NCBI GenBank assembly: GCA_903831865.1
Contig: CAIKZH010000172.1
Span: 1-43,203, forward strand
DNA length: 43,203 nucleotides
Source: an uncultured Coriobacteriia bacterium
Lineage (GTDB): Bacteria > Actinomycetota > Coriobacteriia > Anaerosomatales > PALSA-660
Reading direction: 5' to 3'
The notes below the pieces were generated by a model. It worked only from the letters and a program-made list of their open reading frames with translations, was not told the DNA's origin and did no database searches. Of this stretch, positions 35,840-43,170 are shown in pieces; position 1 is the stretch's first letter; each line of letters opens with the position of its first letter. A program made the translations under genes and the position numbers.

Positions 35840-36832
35840 GTGGCACGGACACGACGCGTGATCGTTCTCGCCATCTCGTTCGCGTTGCTGCTGGCCATCG
35901 GCGCCGGCGGACAGAGGGCTCGCGCGGTGTCGGCCGCGCCGAACGGGTGGTACTGGCCCACCGGCAAGGTCATCGCCGCACCGGCACCCGGGTGGCTTCA
36001 GTCCAGGCCGACGCAGTACAAGCTCGGTCCCGCATGGCATGTGGCCTGGGACGATGTCGCCAGCCACAAGGCCGGAGACCCGTGCTATGCCCTCGATTGG
36101 GGCGTCGTCGTGCTCTCGCGCATGGACGTGAGCGGCTACGGACCGGGTGGCGGCAAGGGCGGAGCGATGGTCGTCAGGTACGACACCTCCGACGGCACCT
36201 ACTTCAACGCGCTGTACGGTCACGTCGTCATCGATCTCAAGAAGTTCAAGGTGGGCACCAAGGTGACGCCCGGCGAGCAGCTGTGCACGCTCAACAAGTA
36301 CAGCCCGCCGCACCTGCACTTCGGGATCCACCTCGGCACCGGCAACCCCAAGCCCCTTCCGTGGACCAAGCCCAAGTTCGTGAGCACGGTGAGCATGCTC
36401 ATGGGCCACACGTACGACACCACCAAGACGGCGAGCGGCAAGATCGTGCCCGAGACGTACGGCTTCACCGATCCGGCGGGCTTCCTGCTGAACCACACCC
36501 CGTGGATCGCGCCCCCCTCGAGTCTGACCACGCCCTCGGTACCGGCGACGTCGGCCCCCAAGTCGTCGTTCTACGGACGCGGGCTCCTCAGCCCGAAGCG
36601 TCCCGCGGGCTCCAAGAACATCCAGCTGATCTGCCAGCATCTCGAGAACGGCAAGTGGGTGAAGAAGGCGACGTTCTTCGCGACCGATGTGGACGCGACC
36701 GCCAGCCACTCCTCCTACGTCGCGACCGCCGGCCTGGCGATGACGGGCTCCTGGAGAGTCCAGGCGTTGGCCCCGGGGAACATGGACTTCCCGGCCAGGC
36801 AGTCCGGCTGGGCCTACCTCACCATCAAGTAG
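35840..36832 (+). CDS. secreted M23-like (LytM) domain protein
   Basis: A 330-residue protein. GTG at 35840 follows GGGGAG; another GTG at 35813 is possible. A signal peptide covers about residues 1-30 (VIVLAISFALLLAIGAGG). The central domain has YALDWGVVVLS, NALYGHVVIDL, KVGTKVTPGEQLCTLN and PPHLHFGIHLG, a LytM/M23 peptidase fold. The usual HxxxD zinc motif reads CYALD, so the first His is replaced by Cys. A C-terminal beta domain follows. It may be a cell-wall hydrolase or an inactive wall-binding relative. The 128-bp gap after thrC holds no gene. Confidence 0.8.
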   Translation: MARTRRVIVLAISFALLLAIGAGGQRARAVSAAPNGWYWPTGKVIAAPAPGWLQSRPTQYKLGPAWHVAWDDVASHKAGDPCYALDWGVVVLSRMDVSGYGPGGGKGGAMVVRYDTSDGTYFNALYGHVVIDLKKFKVGTKVTPGEQLCTLNKYSPPHLHFGIHLGTGNPKPLPWTKPKFVSTVSMLMGHTYDTTKTASGKIVPETYGFTDPAGFLLNHTPWIAPPSSLTTPSVPATSAPKSSFYGRGLLSPKRPAGSKNIQLICQHLENGKWVKKATFFATDVDATASHSSYVATAGLAMTGSWRVQALAPGNMDFPARQSGWAYLTIK

Positions 36833-36860: not shown

Positions 36861-36915
36861 CGCTCACACAGATCGCCTTCCATCCGCTCCCGGTGGAAGG
36901 CGATCTGTGTGAGCG
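36861..36915. repeat. 22-bp perfect inverted repeat
   Basis: Arms at 36861-36882 and 36894-36915 are exact reverse complements (CGCTCACACAGATCGCCTTC... ) around an 11-nt loop, 28 bp after the M23-like stop. It could be a terminator without T tract or a protein-binding or mobile-element-derived site. Confidence 0.8.
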
Positions 36916-37078
36916 CCCCGAGCATGCCGCTTCCTTACTTGGCTCTCGCCAAGGTGTCTGTGTGGCGATGCGCGCCGGGATTCATCGGGCATACTGACCG
37001 GAGGCCACGCAGATGGCGGCCGCGCCGTCCGCTCGCCCGACATCCCTTGAGAGGACGGCCCCGCCAAGTTAGACTGGC

Positions 37079-37241: not shown

Positions 37242-37724
37242 ATGCGCCGCCGTGTCACCTACATAGTCCTCGCGGTGGTGCTCCTTGCGGTGGCCGGCGT
37301 GGCCTGGTACCTGCAATCGACCATGAACTCGCCGGGCGGCCTGGCCGCGCAGGGCAACAGGCTGGCGGGCATCACATCGCCGCCGGGATACAAGGTCACG
37401 GTCGTCGAGAACGGCCGCACGCGTGCCTCGTACACGCTGGCGGGCCTCGAAGCGATCGGGGTCAAGCACGTGGTGGTGCAGGGACAGCCGCAGGACGGCC
37501 CCACGCTGCTCTCAGTGCTGGCCAAGGCCGGGGTGAAGCACTTCACGGCGGTGGACGTTGTCGGCGAGGGCGTGCGCGACAGCGGCAAGATGACCCTCAC
37601 AAGGGCGCAGGTCGTGCCCGACGTGGTGCTCGCCGTAGCTCAGCGCGGCACGGTCAAGATCGCCGGCCCGGACATCCCGCAGGACCAGCGCATCCGCGAC
37701 GTGATCAGGCTCGTGGTGAGATGA
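37242..37724 (+). CDS. secreted SUOX-fold-like protein
   Basis: A 160-residue protein from ATG at 37242, after GAGGAGG. One N-terminal signal or anchor helix (YIVLAVVLLAVAGVAWYL). The body, with GYKVTVVENGRTRASYTLAG, DGPTLLSVLAKAGVKHF and RIRDVIRLVVR, resembles the small sulfite-oxidase (oxidoreductase molybdopterin-binding) fold, but it lacks the conserved cofactor Cys. It is first in a five-gene operon. The fold call is tentative. Confidence 0.6.
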   Translation: MRRRVTYIVLAVVLLAVAGVAWYLQSTMNSPGGLAAQGNRLAGITSPPGYKVTVVENGRTRASYTLAGLEAIGVKHVVVQGQPQDGPTLLSVLAKAGVKHFTAVDVVGEGVRDSGKMTLTRAQVVPDVVLAVAQRGTVKIAGPDIPQDQRIRDVIRLVVR

Positions 37725-38314
37725 CGGATCGCGTCAGCAAGCCCGCCCCCCGCGGCATCGCCGTGGCCGACATCACCGTCATCGCGCTGGTCGCGGTCAT
37801 GATCGTCCTGGGCAAGACCATCACCCGCATCCCGATCAGCGTGTCGGGCCACGGCGGCGTGCTGTGGATAGCCGCACTTGTGATCGGCCGCGCGATCGTT
37901 CGCCGCCCCTGGGCCGGCACTCTCATGGGAGTCGTCGGTGGCCTGCTGGTCGTCATGTTCCAGCCGAGCGAGGCGGGCCCGCTGTTCGGGGCTCTCAAGT
38001 ACATCGTGCCGGGCATGGTGCTCGACGGGCTCTATCCGCTTCTCGGAAGGTTCGATCAGGCCGTGCCGGCAATGCTCGCGGGAGCCGCCGCGCACCTGTC
38101 CAAGGTCGTCGTGGACTTTGTGCAATCGTTTCTCCTCGCCGGCGCGAACTCCAACGCCGCGAAGATCGCACTCGTGACTCTCGCCACCGAGACCCTGGGG
38201 CACCTGCTCTTCGGGATCCTCGGCGGGCTGCTGGCCGCATTCGTGCTGAAGGCGCTCATCCGGGCGAAGATCCCGCAGCTGCGCGGCAGACCCGAGGAAG
38301 GAGGCGCCACGTGA
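37721..38314 (+). CDS. ECF-type substrate-binding membrane protein (S component-like)
   Basis: A 197-residue protein with about five or six membrane helices: VADITVIALVAVMIVLGKTI, GGVLWIAALVIGRAIV, WAGTLMGVVGGLLVVMF, ALKYIVPGMVLDGLYPLLG and TLGHLLFGILGGLLAAFVLK. The pattern fits ECF S components. No ECF ATPases are nearby. ATG overlaps the previous stop by 4 bp. Ligand unknown; the operon context suggests work with the propeller and channel genes downstream. Confidence 0.65.
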   Translation: MTDRVSKPAPRGIAVADITVIALVAVMIVLGKTITRIPISVSGHGGVLWIAALVIGRAIVRRPWAGTLMGVVGGLLVVMFQPSEAGPLFGALKYIVPGMVLDGLYPLLGRFDQAVPAMLAGAAAHLSKVVVDFVQSFLLAGANSNAAKIALVTLATETLGHLLFGILGGLLAAFVLKALIRAKIPQLRGRPEEGGAT

Positions 38315-40305
38315 GGCGCCTCCTGACGGCTCTCGCCCTCGCGGCTGTGCTCGCCGTGTTCGCGGCGCCGATGACCGCGCTCGGCGGCGTCAGCTACATC
38401 CTCGAAGGGACGTCGGGCAATCCCTTCCACCTCGCTGCAGCCACCGCGGGGACAGACCTCGTGGTCCGAGGGACGACCGACCACCAGTCGCTGGTGATGC
38501 CGTACACCTGGAGCACGGTGTACCACGACTCCACCGCGGATCCACGCTCGATGCAGGTGCTCTCGGACGGCTCGGTGCTCTTCGCCGATGGGTTTAGCGG
38601 CCGTGTCCTGCGTGTGAGCGAGCCTGTAGACGGTCACCCCGGCACGTTGCTGTGGGAGTACGAGTACGTCTACCAGAACACGAGTCTTCAGCAGCCTTGG
38701 TCCGCCTGGCTACGGACTGACGGCCCCAACGCCGGAGACATAGTCCTCACTCTGCGCGGATCGGCGCAGCCGCCGACCTACGCGGCCGTGCTCGAAATCA
38801 AACCGACCACGACTTCCGGCGGTCTACCCGTCGGAACGGCCAACCCCACGAGCCAGGGCGCCATTCTCTGGCAATTCCCCGAGGTCCAGAACTCGACGGA
38901 TGTCTCGAGCGGCAAGGCTGCACTGCGCGATCCATTCTCCGCCGTTCCCGTTCCGGGCACGAACCGCACGCTGGTCTGCGACGGGAAGAAGGGCGGCGGG
39001 GGCTACCGCGTGGTGGAACTCGACCCGTCGCAGAAGATCGTGTGGAGCTTCGGGACTCTCGGGACCGCCGGGCGCACGGGTCAGCTGCTCGACGCTCCGC
39101 GAACAGCGCAACGCCTCCCGAACGGCGACACGCTCATCGACGACGAGGGGCCTGACAGCACGAGCCTGCCTTTCGACAAGGGCCGGGTCCTCGAAGTCAG
39201 GCCGGACCACACCATCAAGTCGATCTTCAGCGCCGGCCTCAACGCTCCGGGGGGCGCTTGGCAGCTGCCAAATGGCAATACCGTAATCGCCGACCAGAAC
39301 AACAACCGTGTGCTCACCATCAACAGCGCGCAGAATATCATCGACGTCTACCCGGACCTGAACGGGACCACCACCGACCGGATTTTGACCGGCGGCACGG
39401 TGCTGAACCCTCGCGCGGTCTACTGCACGGACATCGGCCTGCCTTCGCTCTACGCGGGTTGGACCTTCGTCGCTGACCAGCTGCAATCACGCGTCCTGAA
39501 GTACGGCTACGTTCCCGGCGCGACCGCGGTCTCAGCCGCGGCCATCGACCCGAACTCCGCCTACTTGGACAAGACCTGGGCGTCCATCCAGCTCGACTTC
39601 CACAACGCCGCGCACGGCACCGCCTCCGTCGAATACCGCATCGACGGCGGAGGCTGGGTGTCCGCCGGGCCGCCGCAGTCCTCCAGCCCCGCCATCTACG
39701 CCCTGGTCAACGCGAGCGGCCAATACGCCGTCGGGCGGGCCATCGAGTATCGGGTGAAGCTCACCTCTCTCCAGCACGACTCGGCGCCCGTGCTCGACGA
39801 CGTCAAGATCGGCTGGCTCCCGCCGGGTCAGGCGGTGCCCAGCCCCACCGGTACCAGCACGGTCCCGCCGGGAGGCGGAGCGGGTCCCGCCGGCAACGGC
39901 GTGGGTACAGGCCCCGGTGTCGGCAGCGGCGGCGGTAACACATCGATAGCCTCTGCCGGCCGAGCGGGTACGACCAAGAACAACCCCTCGAAGAACGGCA
40001 AGGGCGCGAGCGTCGGCAGCCTGGGAGCGTCGAATCAGGGCGGGACCGGCACCAATGTCCAAAGCGGCACGAAGGTGACCGGCTTCAAGCTGGAGGCGAC
40101 GAAGAGCACACTCACAGGCGGGCACTCGAACACCGGCCCCGGCGCCGCCACTGCTTCGGCGCAGGATCCCGCTCTCGGGGCCATCCCTGGCTTCATCCTG
40201 CTTGTCCTGCTCTACACCGTCGGCACGCTGTGGCCGCAGATCCGGCACGTCGTATCCGTACTCAATCCGCTCCCGCACCTGAAACCCACCGCTACGGAGG
40301 TCTGA
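38311..40305 (+). CDS. membrane-anchored secreted beta-propeller protein
   Basis: A 664-residue protein starting at GTG (GTGA overlap, GAAGGAGG upstream). A signal peptide (LLTALALAAVLAVFAAPMTA) precedes an NHL/arylsulfotransferase-like propeller with repeats such as MQVLSDGSVLFADGFSGRVL, RLPNGDTLIDDEG and QLPNGNTVIADQNNNRVL. A beta-sandwich-like part, a Gly/Ser/Thr-rich linker (about 500-620) and a C-terminal membrane helix (IPGFILLVLLYTVGTLWP) follow. The propeller would sit outside the cell, tethered to the membrane. It shares the operon with the channel genes. Confidence 0.8.
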   Translation: MRRLLTALALAAVLAVFAAPMTALGGVSYILEGTSGNPFHLAAATAGTDLVVRGTTDHQSLVMPYTWSTVYHDSTADPRSMQVLSDGSVLFADGFSGRVLRVSEPVDGHPGTLLWEYEYVYQNTSLQQPWSAWLRTDGPNAGDIVLTLRGSAQPPTYAAVLEIKPTTTSGGLPVGTANPTSQGAILWQFPEVQNSTDVSSGKAALRDPFSAVPVPGTNRTLVCDGKKGGGGYRVVELDPSQKIVWSFGTLGTAGRTGQLLDAPRTAQRLPNGDTLIDDEGPDSTSLPFDKGRVLEVRPDHTIKSIFSAGLNAPGGAWQLPNGNTVIADQNNNRVLTINSAQNIIDVYPDLNGTTTDRILTGGTVLNPRAVYCTDIGLPSLYAGWTFVADQLQSRVLKYGYVPGATAVSAAAIDPNSAYLDKTWASIQLDFHNAAHGTASVEYRIDGGGWVSAGPPQSSSPAIYALVNASGQYAVGRAIEYRVKLTSLQHDSAPVLDDVKIGWLPPGQAVPSPTGTSTVPPGGGAGPAGNGVGTGPGVGSGGGNTSIASAGRAGTTKNNPSKNGKGASVGSLGASNQGGTGTNVQSGTKVTGFKLEATKSTLTGGHSNTGPGAATASAQDPALGAIPGFILLVLLYTVGTLWPQIRHVVSVLNPLPHLKPTATEV

Positions 40306-40949
40306 TGAAAGCGTTCCTCGCAGGCGTCGGCTACTACATCGCCCACCCCGCGGCCCTCATGTACCCGGTCGCCACGATCCTCCTGTGGCCCATCCTGGTC
40401 ATCGAGGTGGCTGCGCTGTGTTTCGTGGTCTTCGAGTTCGGGCGCTTCACGATCGAGATGCTGCGCCGTGACAGGAAGCGTTCGCTCATCAGGATCGAGG
40501 CTGCGGCACGGCGCTCGCGCGCCGAGATCACCGCAAGGAAGGGCCGCGACGCGGTCACGAACCTGCGCGAGATCAGCGGGAACTGGCTGGTCGCGCACTT
40601 CGTGTCGCTATTGGGTGACGGCAGCGACATGAGCACAGCTCGTCTCGCAAAGGTCCTCGCCGAGACCGAGATGACAGCGACCAAGCGCCTCGACAGCACG
40701 CGGCTCTGGATCCGGCTCGGCCCGATGATCGGCCTCGCCACCACGCTCATCCCGATCAGCCCGGCCCTCGTCGCGCTCGCAAAAGGCGACCTCGCCACTC
40801 TGTCAGCAGAGCTCATCATCGCCTTCTCGACCACGGTCATCGGCCTCGTGATCTCGGCGGCTGCCTTCGTGATCTCCACGATCCGCGAACGCGTCTACCT
40901 GCAGGACATCAGCGACATCGAGTACGCACTCGAACTACTGGAGGGGTGA
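40305..40949 (+). CDS. MotA/TolQ/ExbB-family proton channel protein
   Basis: A 214-residue protein whose ATG shares one base with the upstream stop. Three membrane helices: MYPVATILLWPILVIEVAAL, GPMIGLATTLIPISPALVAL and AELIIAFSTTVIGLVISAAA, with a cytosolic loop of about 90 residues between helix 1 and 2. This is the ExbB/TolQ layout, including the GP..GL..T and STTVIGL signatures. Such proteins use proton flow to power a partner. The partner is probably the DUF2149 product, 3 bp downstream. Confidence 0.85.
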   Translation: MKAFLAGVGYYIAHPAALMYPVATILLWPILVIEVAALCFVVFEFGRFTIEMLRRDRKRSLIRIEAAARRSRAEITARKGRDAVTNLREISGNWLVAHFVSLLGDGSDMSTARLAKVLAETEMTATKRLDSTRLWIRLGPMIGLATTLIPISPALVALAKGDLATLSAELIIAFSTTVIGLVISAAAFVISTIRERVYLQDISDIEYALELLEG

Positions 40950-40952
40950 GAC

Positions 40953-41318
40953 ATGTCCGACACCACGGCACGGGATCCGGCCTGCGACATGCGGTTCATG
41001 CGCAAGCGTCGTCTGGTCAGTCGCGCCCAGCACGAAGACCCCATGGCCTCGATGGCCAACCTCTTCGACCTGATGCTTCTGCTGGCCGTCGGGCTGTTCA
41101 TCATGGCGCTCAGTTCGTACGGTCTGGGAGGCTTGCTCACGCAGAAGGACTTCAGCTTGGTCACGAATCCAGGCACCCAGAACGAGAGGATCGTCACGAA
41201 GAATGGGTCCACCATCACGACGCTGAAGCCGACGAGCAACTCTGTCACGGGCGTCGGCAAGCGGGTCGGATCCATCTTCAGCGTGAACGGCAATCTCGTC
41301 TACGTGCCGGGGCAGTAG
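40953..41318 (+). CDS. DUF2149 family protein, ExbD-like partner
   Basis: A 121-residue protein after GGAGGGG. DPMASMANLFDLMLLLAVGL starts a single membrane helix with an Asp in the position of the channel Asp of ExbD/TolR (xIDVMxxLL). A short extracytoplasmic part ends GKRVGSIFSVNGNLVYVPGQ, as in DUF2149. The family is known mostly from methanogens, where it also neighbours a MotA/TolQ/ExbB gene. The ExbD analogy is an inference. Confidence 0.85.
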   Translation: MSDTTARDPACDMRFMRKRRLVSRAQHEDPMASMANLFDLMLLLAVGLFIMALSSYGLGGLLTQKDFSLVTNPGTQNERIVTKNGSTITTLKPTSNSVTGVGKRVGSIFSVNGNLVYVPGQ

Positions 41319-41333
41319 GACACGCGGGGCCTC

Positions 41334-42467
41334 TCAGCCCGCGCCGACCTCCCGCACGCGCACTGCGCCCGCACGGAACAACGCGACCGCGGAGCTCCCC
41401 TCGGCGAGCCCGAGGTCCCGGACCGCGGCCCGCGACAGCGACGCGCCGAAGCGCACCCCCGGGGCCTCGCACACGACGTTCACGAGCGCGCCCTTGGGAT
41501 GAAGCTCCGCGACGGTGACGACGATCCGGTTCTCGGCCCCGTGCGCGCCCTCGTCTCCCCCTGAGCGTCGAAGCGCCACATCCTCCGGCCGCACCGCGAG
41601 GCTCACGTCGGCGCCCACGGCGACGTCCGCTGCGGCCTCGATCGCGGTGCCGCCGCAGTCGACCTGCACGACGCCTCCTGCGCTCGCGACCACGCGGCCG
41701 CGCATCGCGGGCTCCATGCCCACGAACGACGCGACCCACTCGTCCGCCGGCAGCCCCAGTGTCTCCTCGGAGTCCCCCTCCGCCACGAGGCGGCCGTCGC
41801 GCATGATGCCCACCACGTCGGCGACCACCGCCGCCTCGTCCTGGTCATGGGTGACGTACAGCGCGGTGACCTGCTCGCTCTTCAGGATGTCGGCGAACTC
41901 CAACGTGAGTCGCCAGCGCAGCAGCGGGTCCATGTAGGAGAGCGGCTCGTCCAGGAGCAGCAGCTCCGGGTGCACCGCCAGCGCACGCGCCAGGGCGATG
42001 CGCTGCGCCTCACCTCCCGAGAGCGTGAGCGCGCTGTGGTCCTCCCAGCCGGCGAGTCCCACGCGCTCCAGCGCCCAGGAGACGTCCTCATGACGGCGCT
42101 TGCGATGTATCCCGCGCAGCTTGAGCCCGTAGCCCACATTGTCGGCAACGGTGCCGCGCAGAAGGTACGGCTTCTGGAACACCGCGGACGTCCGCCGCCT
42201 GGCGGCGAGATCTCCCGCACGCATCTCGACGCCGTCGAAGAAGACGCATCCTGCGGAGGGGCGCTCGAGCAGGCCCAGCACGCGCAACAGCGTCGACTTC
42301 CCGGCGCCCGAAGGGCCGAGGAGCGCGTAGGTCCGCCGCGCAGGCAGTGTGATGTTCGGAATGTCGAGCACCGTGCGACCGCGATAGCGAACGGTCACAT
42401 CGGAGCCGCGGACCATCGGCGCCCCGTGACCCATCGCGTTCGACTCGTTCGGTCTTGGGTCGGACAT
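41334..42467 (-). CDS. tupC: tungstate/molybdate-type ABC transporter ATPase
   Basis: An approximately 377-residue ATPase. Walker A GPSGAGKST, Q-loop FQKPYL, signature LSGGEAQR, Walker B LLLLDEP and switch His in VTHDQDEA, then a C-terminal TOBE-like regulatory domain. ATG at 42467 starts 1 bp after the tupB stop; an ATG at 42479 would overlap it by 11 bp and neither has a clear ribosome binding site. Powers uptake of tungstate (or molybdate). Its 3' end is 15 bp from the convergent DUF2149 gene. Confidence 0.85.
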   Translation of the reverse strand: MSDPRPNESNAMGHGAPMVRGSDVTVRYRGRTVLDIPNITLPARRTYALLGPSGAGKSTLLRVLGLLERPSAGCVFFDGVEMRAGDLAARRRTSAVFQKPYLLRGTVADNVGYGLKLRGIHRKRRHEDVSWALERVGLAGWEDHSALTLSGGEAQRIALARALAVHPELLLLDEPLSYMDPLLRWRLTLEFADILKSEQVTALYVTHDQDEAAVVADVVGIMRDGRLVAEGDSEETLGLPADEWVASFVGMEPAMRGRVVASAGGVVQVDCGGTAIEAAADVAVGADVSLAVRPEDVALRRSGGDEGAHGAENRIVVTVAELHPKGALVNVVCEAPGVRFGASLSRAAVRDLGLAEGSSAVALFRAGAVRVREVGAG

Positions 42468-42468
42468 G

Positions 42469-43170
42469 TCAGGTCTCATAGACCACCGATGCGTTCTGCG
42501 AGATGGTCAGGACCGCGTTCACCACAAGGGCGATGCCGATGAGGATGATCGCCCACGCGAGCGCCCTCCCGAAGTCGCCGTACTGGGTCCAGAACCAGAT
42601 CGAGGTCGTCATCACGCGAGTGCGGCCCTCGATGTTGCCGCCCACGAGCATCACCGCGCCGACCTCGGAGATGACGCCGCCGAACCCGGCGATGACCGCC
42701 GCCATCACGCCCGTCCGCGACTCCGCGAGGACCGCCATCGTCTCCTGCATTCGTGACGCGCCCAGCGCCCTCACCTGGAGGCGGATGTCGCGCGAGACCC
42801 CGGCGACGGACGCGGTGGTCACACCGATCACAAGAGGCGCCCCGATGATCACCTGTGCGATGACCATGGCTGTCGGCGTGTAGAGAAGGTTGAGGTAGCC
42901 GACGGGTCCGCTGCGCGAGATGGCGATGTACACGATCAAGCCCACCACGATCGGCGGGAAGCCCATCGCCGTGTTGACGAGCAGCATGAGCGCGGCCCGG
43001 CCCCCGAACCTGCTGACGCCGAGAAGATAGCCGAGGGGAACCCCTATGACGGTGGCGATGAGCGTGGCGATCCCGGAGACCTGCAACGACAGCCAGATGA
43101 CCGGCCACACTTCCGGCGAGCCGCTGACCAGCAGTCGGATCGCAGCCAAGAACGAGGTCCAGAAGATCAC
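42469..43170 (-). CDS. tupB: tungstate-type ABC transporter permease
   Basis: A 233-residue permease from GTG at 43170, with ATGGAG 8 bp upstream. Five or six helices, with TLIATVIGVPLGYLLGVSRF, NTAMGFPPIVVGLIVYI, the coupling loop VRALGASRMQETMAVLAESR and IAGFGGVISEVGAVMLVGGN typical of TupB. The substrate-binding gene tupA would lie beyond the window edge. Tungstate supply fits a strict anaerobe with tungsten enzymes (inference). Confidence 0.88.
   Translation of the reverse strand: MIFWTSFLAAIRLLVSGSPEVWPVIWLSLQVSGIATLIATVIGVPLGYLLGVSRFGGRAALMLLVNTAMGFPPIVVGLIVYIAISRSGPVGYLNLLYTPTAMVIAQVIIGAPLVIGVTTASVAGVSRDIRLQVRALGASRMQETMAVLAESRTGVMAAVIAGFGGVISEVGAVMLVGGNIEGRTRVMTTSIWFWTQYGDFGRALAWAIILIGIALVVNAVLTISQNASVVYET

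Follow-up and report, generated by a model that had tools for sequence, protein, structure and literature searches.

In the stretch of 43,203 nucleotides analysed here (the window), which comes from an uncultured Coriobacteriia bacterium, five genes designated P1 to P5 form an operon at positions 37242-41318. With a probability of about 0.5, this operon is read as a proton-driven uptake system of the molybdenum/tungsten (Mo/W)-cofactor regulon, where an ExbB/DUF2149 motor pair (P4 and P5) would work a secreted propeller (P3) and bring a pterin- or oxyanion-type ligand to an extracellular domain of SUOX/PruR fold (P1) and to a membrane protein with the fold of the S-components of energy-coupling factor (ECF) transporters (P2). 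Such a combination, i.e. an Hmu-like ExbB/DUF2149 pair joined to an ECF S-component within a W/Mo-cofactor regulon, is new, and the Mo/W link of the operon is strong.

All located on the forward strand, P1 (37242-37724, 160 amino acids, aa), P2 (37721-38314, 197 aa), P3 (38311-40305, 664 aa, GTG start), P4 (40305-40949, 214 aa) and P5 (40953-41318, 121 aa) overlap successively by 4, 4 and 1 bp, with a 3-bp gap between P4 and P5, which confirms the tight coupling claimed in a preliminary description of this DNA. The conservation in relatives that it called for is also found, the complete order being present in 12/69 genomes of the order; since the five genes are kept together to this extent, their arrangement is more than chance. 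DUF2149 itself occurs in 18 of these 69 genomes, the remaining cases being truncated by contig ends, reduced or of another type. In a GTDB-wide scan, the hosts were mainly metagenome-assembled genomes of Coriobacteriia or Actinomycetes, and the nearest ExbB proteins outside were those of Methanosarcinales and anaerobic methanotrophic (ANME) archaea.

The motor pair

P4 belongs to the MotA/TolQ/ExbB family (PF01618, 2.9e-7, 30.7 bits for a cut-off of 22.9) and displays three transmembrane (TM) helices, while P5, with a single TM helix, is a DUF2149 protein (PF09919, 2.3e-18, 66.7 bits for a cut-off of 27.1), so that both family names proposed from the letters alone hold above their cut-offs. 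In P4, T147 and T177 align with the channel-lining T148 and T181 of ExbB and are kept in 16/16 sequences from Coriobacteriia, other Actinobacteriota and ANME archaea; in P5, N36 and D39 are invariant in 14/14 sequences of the same three groups. The ExbD-like Asp recognised earlier in the DUF2149 helix is thus conserved across phyla, and D39 stands at the place of the proton-carrying Asp of ExbD. Judging from these residues, P4 and P5 may work like ExbB and ExbD, P5 itself not being classed as an ExbD, as it matches DUF2149 only and PF02472 (ExbD/TolR) has no match in the whole host genome. The channel Thr residues, the transmembrane Asp and the pairing of a three-TM with a one-TM protein are shared with ExbB-ExbD(-TonB) and other 5:2 proton motors, whereas DUF2149 in place of PF02472 and a host genome devoid of ExbD and Omp85 set the present pair apart.

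The usual view of motors of ExbB/ExbD type is that they work for an outer membrane. Neither Omp85 nor a canonical ExbD was found in a genome-wide search of the host, which is consistent with a monoderm envelope and bears out the remark that there is no outer membrane to energise. Because a lineage without outer-membrane markers keeps the operon, the proton-motor pair must have a job other than at an outer membrane. Incomplete Ton systems in monoderms, e.g. Actinobacteria, have been called likely non-functional, and other 5:2 motors power motility (PMC12204202); no paper combining ExbB, Coriobacteriia and proton channel was found in the literature.

An ExbB-family protein paired with DUF2149 corresponds to HmuU/HmuV of the hmu heme operon of Bacteroidota (PMC10434189, PMC10100974, PMC12583661). 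The preliminary view that DUF2149 with a MotA-like partner is mainly methanogenic has therefore to be abandoned, the pair occurring as HmuV/HmuU in Bacteroidota and also across Actinobacteriota and ANME archaea. With HmuYRSTUV, P1-P5 has in common the motor pair, a large membrane-anchored extracytoplasmic partner and a permease-like membrane gene; it differs in having a propeller, a SUOX-fold domain and an ECF S-component in place of a TonB-dependent receptor, a hemophore and a CobN-like dechelatase, and in being surrounded by Mo/W rather than iron/heme genes. HmuS (CobN-like) and HmuR are both missing from the operon and from its conserved surroundings, no genome-wide search having been made.

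The closest ExbB/DUF2149 relatives outside the class are DUF2162-ExbB-DUF2149 operons with a secreted CobN-like protein, found in ANME archaea/Methanosarcinales and some Actinobacteriota (L053 9295-15479, L086, L087), archaea likewise having no outer membrane; there, the HmuS-like secreted chelatase and DUF2162, for which no paper was found, stand where P1-P5 has the propeller, P1 and P2. In the PDB, the ANME CobN-like protein matches the HmuS dechelatase best (7.7e-153) and CobN after it, and these sets look like an Hmu-like system without TonB receptor. A second, host-associated Coriobacteriia type (L037 9646-13737; L092; L113 3618-14123; L114 103-10785) combines ExbB and DUF2149 with an ATP-binding cassette (ABC) importer of Peripla_BP_2 type, a C-terminally anchored immunoglobulin (Ig)-domain protein and a giant surface protein; SUOX-like domains suspected in its Eggerthellaceae-type loci (L037, L092) and in L089 gained no support from profile-profile comparison. 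In the DUF2149 locus of one lineage (L090 9288-13709), ExbB adjoins an anchored FmdE-domain protein of 1062 aa, which has TM helices at both termini. The ExbB/DUF2149 pair is hence found repeatedly, also where there is no outer membrane, beside importers and membrane-anchored extracellular proteins that stand in for one another.

The extracytoplasmic and membrane partners

P3 is a secreted protein with a signal peptide, a Gly/Ser-rich linker and a C-terminal TM anchor. As a single sequence it has no Pfam match, and the profile of its family matches NHL propellers at 2e-21, in agreement with the large, secreted and anchored propeller first described. P3-P4-P5 occurs without P1-P2 in two loci (the second set of L021, and L023), which ties the propeller to the motor. 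A common juxtamembrane motif ahead of the C-terminal TM helix of the propeller, CobN, FmdE and Ig partners was convincing by eye and was dropped after a profile test (p 0.07-0.6).

P1 is a small protein without any cysteine, in which an N-terminal TM helix precedes an extracellular domain. Its SUOX-like sequence signal is as low as 0.072 (Pfam); its AlphaFold2 model (predicted local distance difference test, pLDDT, 83) nevertheless finds as best Foldseek match the pterin-binding PruR (7kos, 3.7e-5; range 3.7e-5 to 6.6e-4), then sulfite oxidases and YedY, in line with the small SUOX-like protein announced earlier, now seen to be anchored at its N-terminus. R135, G136, T137, K139, R150, R152 and D153 are conserved, R135, K139, R150 and R152 being invariant, and these Arg/Lys residues hint at an anionic ligand. 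PruR binds pterin via a Trp (Trp160; PMC13259868). P1 shares with the PruR/sulfite-oxidase fold its architecture, small size, extracytoplasmic site and lack of a Mo-ligating Cys, but it has transport-type neighbours rather than DcpA or a kinase, and the pterin Trp is replaced by Arg150, which is why P1 is by its modelled fold PruR-like and is not called a PruR. A weak Pfam match to P-II proteins (0.016) received no support from the fold search.

P2 is polytopic and its AlphaFold2 model (pLDDT 81) shows six helices, with S-components as all ten best PDB matches (probability 0.94-1.00), led by YkoE (E 9e-3) and followed by ThiT, PanT and RibU, all at E 9e-3 and above; the ECF-type membrane protein of the preliminary description is thereby upheld. 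Against PF09819, P2 scores 17.1 bits (E 0.0065), below the cut-off of 25.2, and its homologue in locus L068 scores 53.9 bits, above it. In S-components, an AxxxA motif in helix 1 docks EcfT (PMC4820897), and of 12 P2 copies 9 have A-xxx-A/S/G, while the window copy and its two closest copies have A-xxx-V. A general EcfAA'T module lies in a ribosomal-protein cluster on another contig of the host (C76, L098), which also has a separate CbiM-type cobalt set. Thus, P2 has the fold of YkoE, ThiT, PanT and RibU and a general EcfAA'T elsewhere in the genome, but differs from these ECF transporters by an operon lacking EcfA and EcfT, a tie to a proton motor and a place in a Mo/W-cofactor regulon. No relation of P2 to DUF2162 was found by profile-profile comparison.

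P2-like proteins are scarce in the phylum (9/396). In three genomes of another Actinobacteriota lineage (family f23), they have SUOX-like lipoproteins as neighbours (PF00174 above cut-off in both tested), joined, where the contig is long enough (L068, L069), by two ABC ATPases and a gene of CbiQ/EcfT type, and in L068 by MobB; hhalign relates these S-components to P2 at 98.4% (8e-15). At both intact 5' ends, a molybdenum cofactor (Moco) riboswitch lies immediately upstream of the operon of the SUOX-like lipoprotein and the P2-like S-component (L067 2540-2665, reverse strand; L069 7462-7585, forward strand; E 8.5e-13 and 1.4e-12), and an attempt to enlarge this sample found the set in 3/35 genomes only. 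This riboswitch-led operon, with its ABC ATPases and EcfT in L069, is by itself a candidate ECF importer for a Mo/W cofactor; no title or abstract describing a Mo/W or pterin-cofactor ECF S-component was found in the literature. In genome G278 (L070 101-6143), a CbiQ domain is followed in the same protein by a P2-like domain (hhalign 94.7%); this CbiQ/EcfT-S-component fusion adjoins ModABC, a helix-turn-helix (HTH)-TOBE protein and a two-gene pair resembling the molybdenum storage protein (1e-57). Separate from Coriobacteriia, the f23 and G278 settings point the same way, to Mo/W, and, over three lineages, the P2 family is met beside Moco riboswitches, ModABC/Mo-storage genes or Tup genes.

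The tungsten and molybdenum context

Convergent with P1-P5 on the reverse strand are genes for a tungstate-type ABC ATPase (WtpC/TupC-like, with TOBE; 41334..42467, the reading frame possibly starting at 42479; NF040840, 1e-62) and a TupB-like permease (42469..43170; NF041773, 9e-46), the contig running out before TupA. In the neighbourhood survey proposed in the preliminary description, the propeller does accompany the motor, even without the S-component; left out of that description were the tungstate genes at 41334-43170, which are the main clue. Its functional reading, by which the pair may power the propeller or the ECF-like carrier, is partly supported: it stands as regards a proton-motor pair of ExbB/ExbD type, and it missed the Mo/W-cofactor setting with its likely class of substrate.

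In relatives, TupABC (L021, L022, L025, L032) or ModABC (L026) adjoins the operon, with a Moco riboswitch ahead of TupA in the four Tup loci. The order in L022 and L025 is a regulator with HTH and PF12727 domains, the latter resembling periplasmic binding proteins (PBP), a cell-wall-binding surface protein with CWB2/Fn3 domains, P1-P5, a TiaS-like gene, a TOBE protein, the Moco riboswitch, TupABC, FdhD-MobA and a full set of Moco-synthesis genes (MoeA-, MobB-, MoaA-, MoaC- and MOSC-like), FdhD-MobA being a Pfam result and the other Moco-synthesis genes being labelled by reading the sequence. In counts that ignore phylogeny, 15 of the 17 genomes having this type of operon also have the HTH-PBP regulator, as against 8 of the 52 that lack it (Fisher 9e-8); for the TiaS-like gene, the figures are 11/17 and 3/52 (2e-6). 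This gene encodes a 'DDTD' protein (L022 10228-10980; L093 11078-12088) with weak matches to TiaS and methanogenesis marker 11, and it accompanies two different ExbB/DUF2149 operon types. Genome G027 (L116 8265-10457) keeps the regulator, the TiaS-like gene, the Moco riboswitch and TupABC, and misses the surface-protein gene and P1-P5; since the same Mo locus exists there without the operon, P1-P5 is an accessory of it. All three Moco riboswitches of the host (L124, L125 and L126, on contigs C77, C125 and C25) precede pairs of a ferredoxin-type gene and a gene of the aldehyde:ferredoxin oxidoreductase family, whose members are classically tungstopterin enzymes.

Upstream of P1-P5, a weak sigma-70-like promoter candidate (TTGAGA-17-TAGACT, 37047..37075, forward strand) rests on consensus match only, with 1 found vs. 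0.4 expected in shuffles. Further upstream, a perfect inverted repeat of 18 bp whose loop has 11 bases (36865-36911), present as a single copy in the window, comes after an M23-peptidase-like gene (35858-36832).

Proposed mechanism and alternative explanations

By homology and conserved residues, P4 would form a ring around the helices of P5, Asp39 ferrying protons past Thr147 and Thr177. P3, on its flexible linker, would be the extracellular working arm of this motor and fill the place held by the membrane-anchored HmuS/CobN in Hmu-type systems. The predicted folds suggest for P1 the role of binding the ligand first and delivering it to P2, which would move it inward with the general EcfAA'T or by the motor itself; in relatives, the cell-wall-binding surface protein and the PBP-like regulator would complete the system. 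A pterin cofactor or a Mo/W species is the probable ligand, because the fold of P1 is of pterin-binding type, relatives of P2 stand under Moco riboswitches and free oxyanions are already served by TupABC/ModABC; going by regulon membership, a molybdo- or tungsto-pterin, a pterin precursor or a Mo/W species would most likely be scavenged when the W/Mo cofactor is short.

Several observations weigh against this uptake of a Mo/W-related ligand. In the alignment, the column of the PruR pterin Trp is the invariant Arg150 in P1. The window copy of P2, like its two closest copies, has A-xxx-V instead of AxxxA, and EcfA and EcfT are absent from the P1-P5 operon. Several residues that P2 conserves are missing from the f23 S-components, so that the two may have different ligands. 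In the window and all the Coriobacteriia loci examined, no Moco riboswitch lies directly upstream of P1-P5, and the co-occurrence counts for the regulator and the TiaS-like gene take no account of phylogeny. Lastly, the sets of P3-P5 without P1-P2 (L021, L023) mean that the motor may have another job.

These reduced sets are also in keeping with a role in sensing or at the cell surface, in which P1 would sense extracellular pterin and the motor-driven propeller act in attachment or in remodelling of the wall or surface (S-)layer, as MotA-like motors do in gliding. PruR being a signalling protein (PMC13259868), motility being powered by other 5:2 motors (PMC12204202) and the neighbouring surface protein having CWB2/Fn3 domains all lend it some credit; yet the conserved neighbourhood holds no DcpA-like, kinase or motility gene, and 12 genomes have P1 co-translated with a subunit of importer type, P2, which leaves this role unlikely. 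Acquisition of a tetrapyrrole is still less probable: the pair would be HmuUV, as in the heme operons of Bacteroidota (PMC10100974, PMC12583661), with the propeller replacing HmuS and heme or a corrinoid as cargo, and the same pair does stand beside HmuS/CobN-like proteins in ANME archaea and with the Peripla_BP_2-type importer in other Coriobacteriia, but the operon and its conserved neighbourhood have no gene for a CobN/HmuS-like protein, DUF2162 or a TonB receptor, P2 is unrelated to DUF2162, and the neighbours are Mo/W genes. Equally doubtful is an ordinary vitamin or cobalt ECF uptake through P2, e.g. of a thiamine precursor, with the motor genes as mere neighbours. The top S-component match, YkoE, is of hydroxymethylpyrimidine (HMP)/thiamine type, the weak Pfam match of P2 bears the name ABC_cobalt and the host has both EcfAA'T and the CbiM-type set; however, the Mo-related neighbourhoods of the P2 family in three lineages and the maintenance of the five-gene order in 12 genomes speak against it.

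Regarding uptake within the Mo/W-cofactor regulon, a Ton-like import without an outer membrane can be put forward only tentatively, the odds being against it though it is less improbable than any of these alternatives: the motor would drive a wall-spanning propeller that pulls a tungsto- or molybdo-pterin, or a Mo/W complex, from the surface to the SUOX-fold receptor and the S-component.

Concluding remarks

In P1-P5, a lineage without outer-membrane markers conserves, within a metal-cofactor regulon, an operon whose proton-motor pair is accompanied by a receptor-like domain and a subunit of importer type, and the operon is probably a new route for a metal-cofactor nutrient through the cell wall. 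In gut Bacteroidota, HmuUV is assumed to power a TonB-dependent receptor; going by the cases from archaea and Coriobacteriia, a pair of this type may act directly on anchored extracellular partners. As for pterin-cofactor uptake, the riboswitch-controlled ECF S-component with its SUOX-like partners provides a concrete candidate. If the Ton-like reading is true, P1-P5 would import a pterin metal cofactor, and would do so by an energised uptake in which receptor, motor and carrier act across the cell wall instead of the outer membrane. To our knowledge, no example of such an importer or of such an uptake has been described, and P1-P5 would then be a new kind of system.

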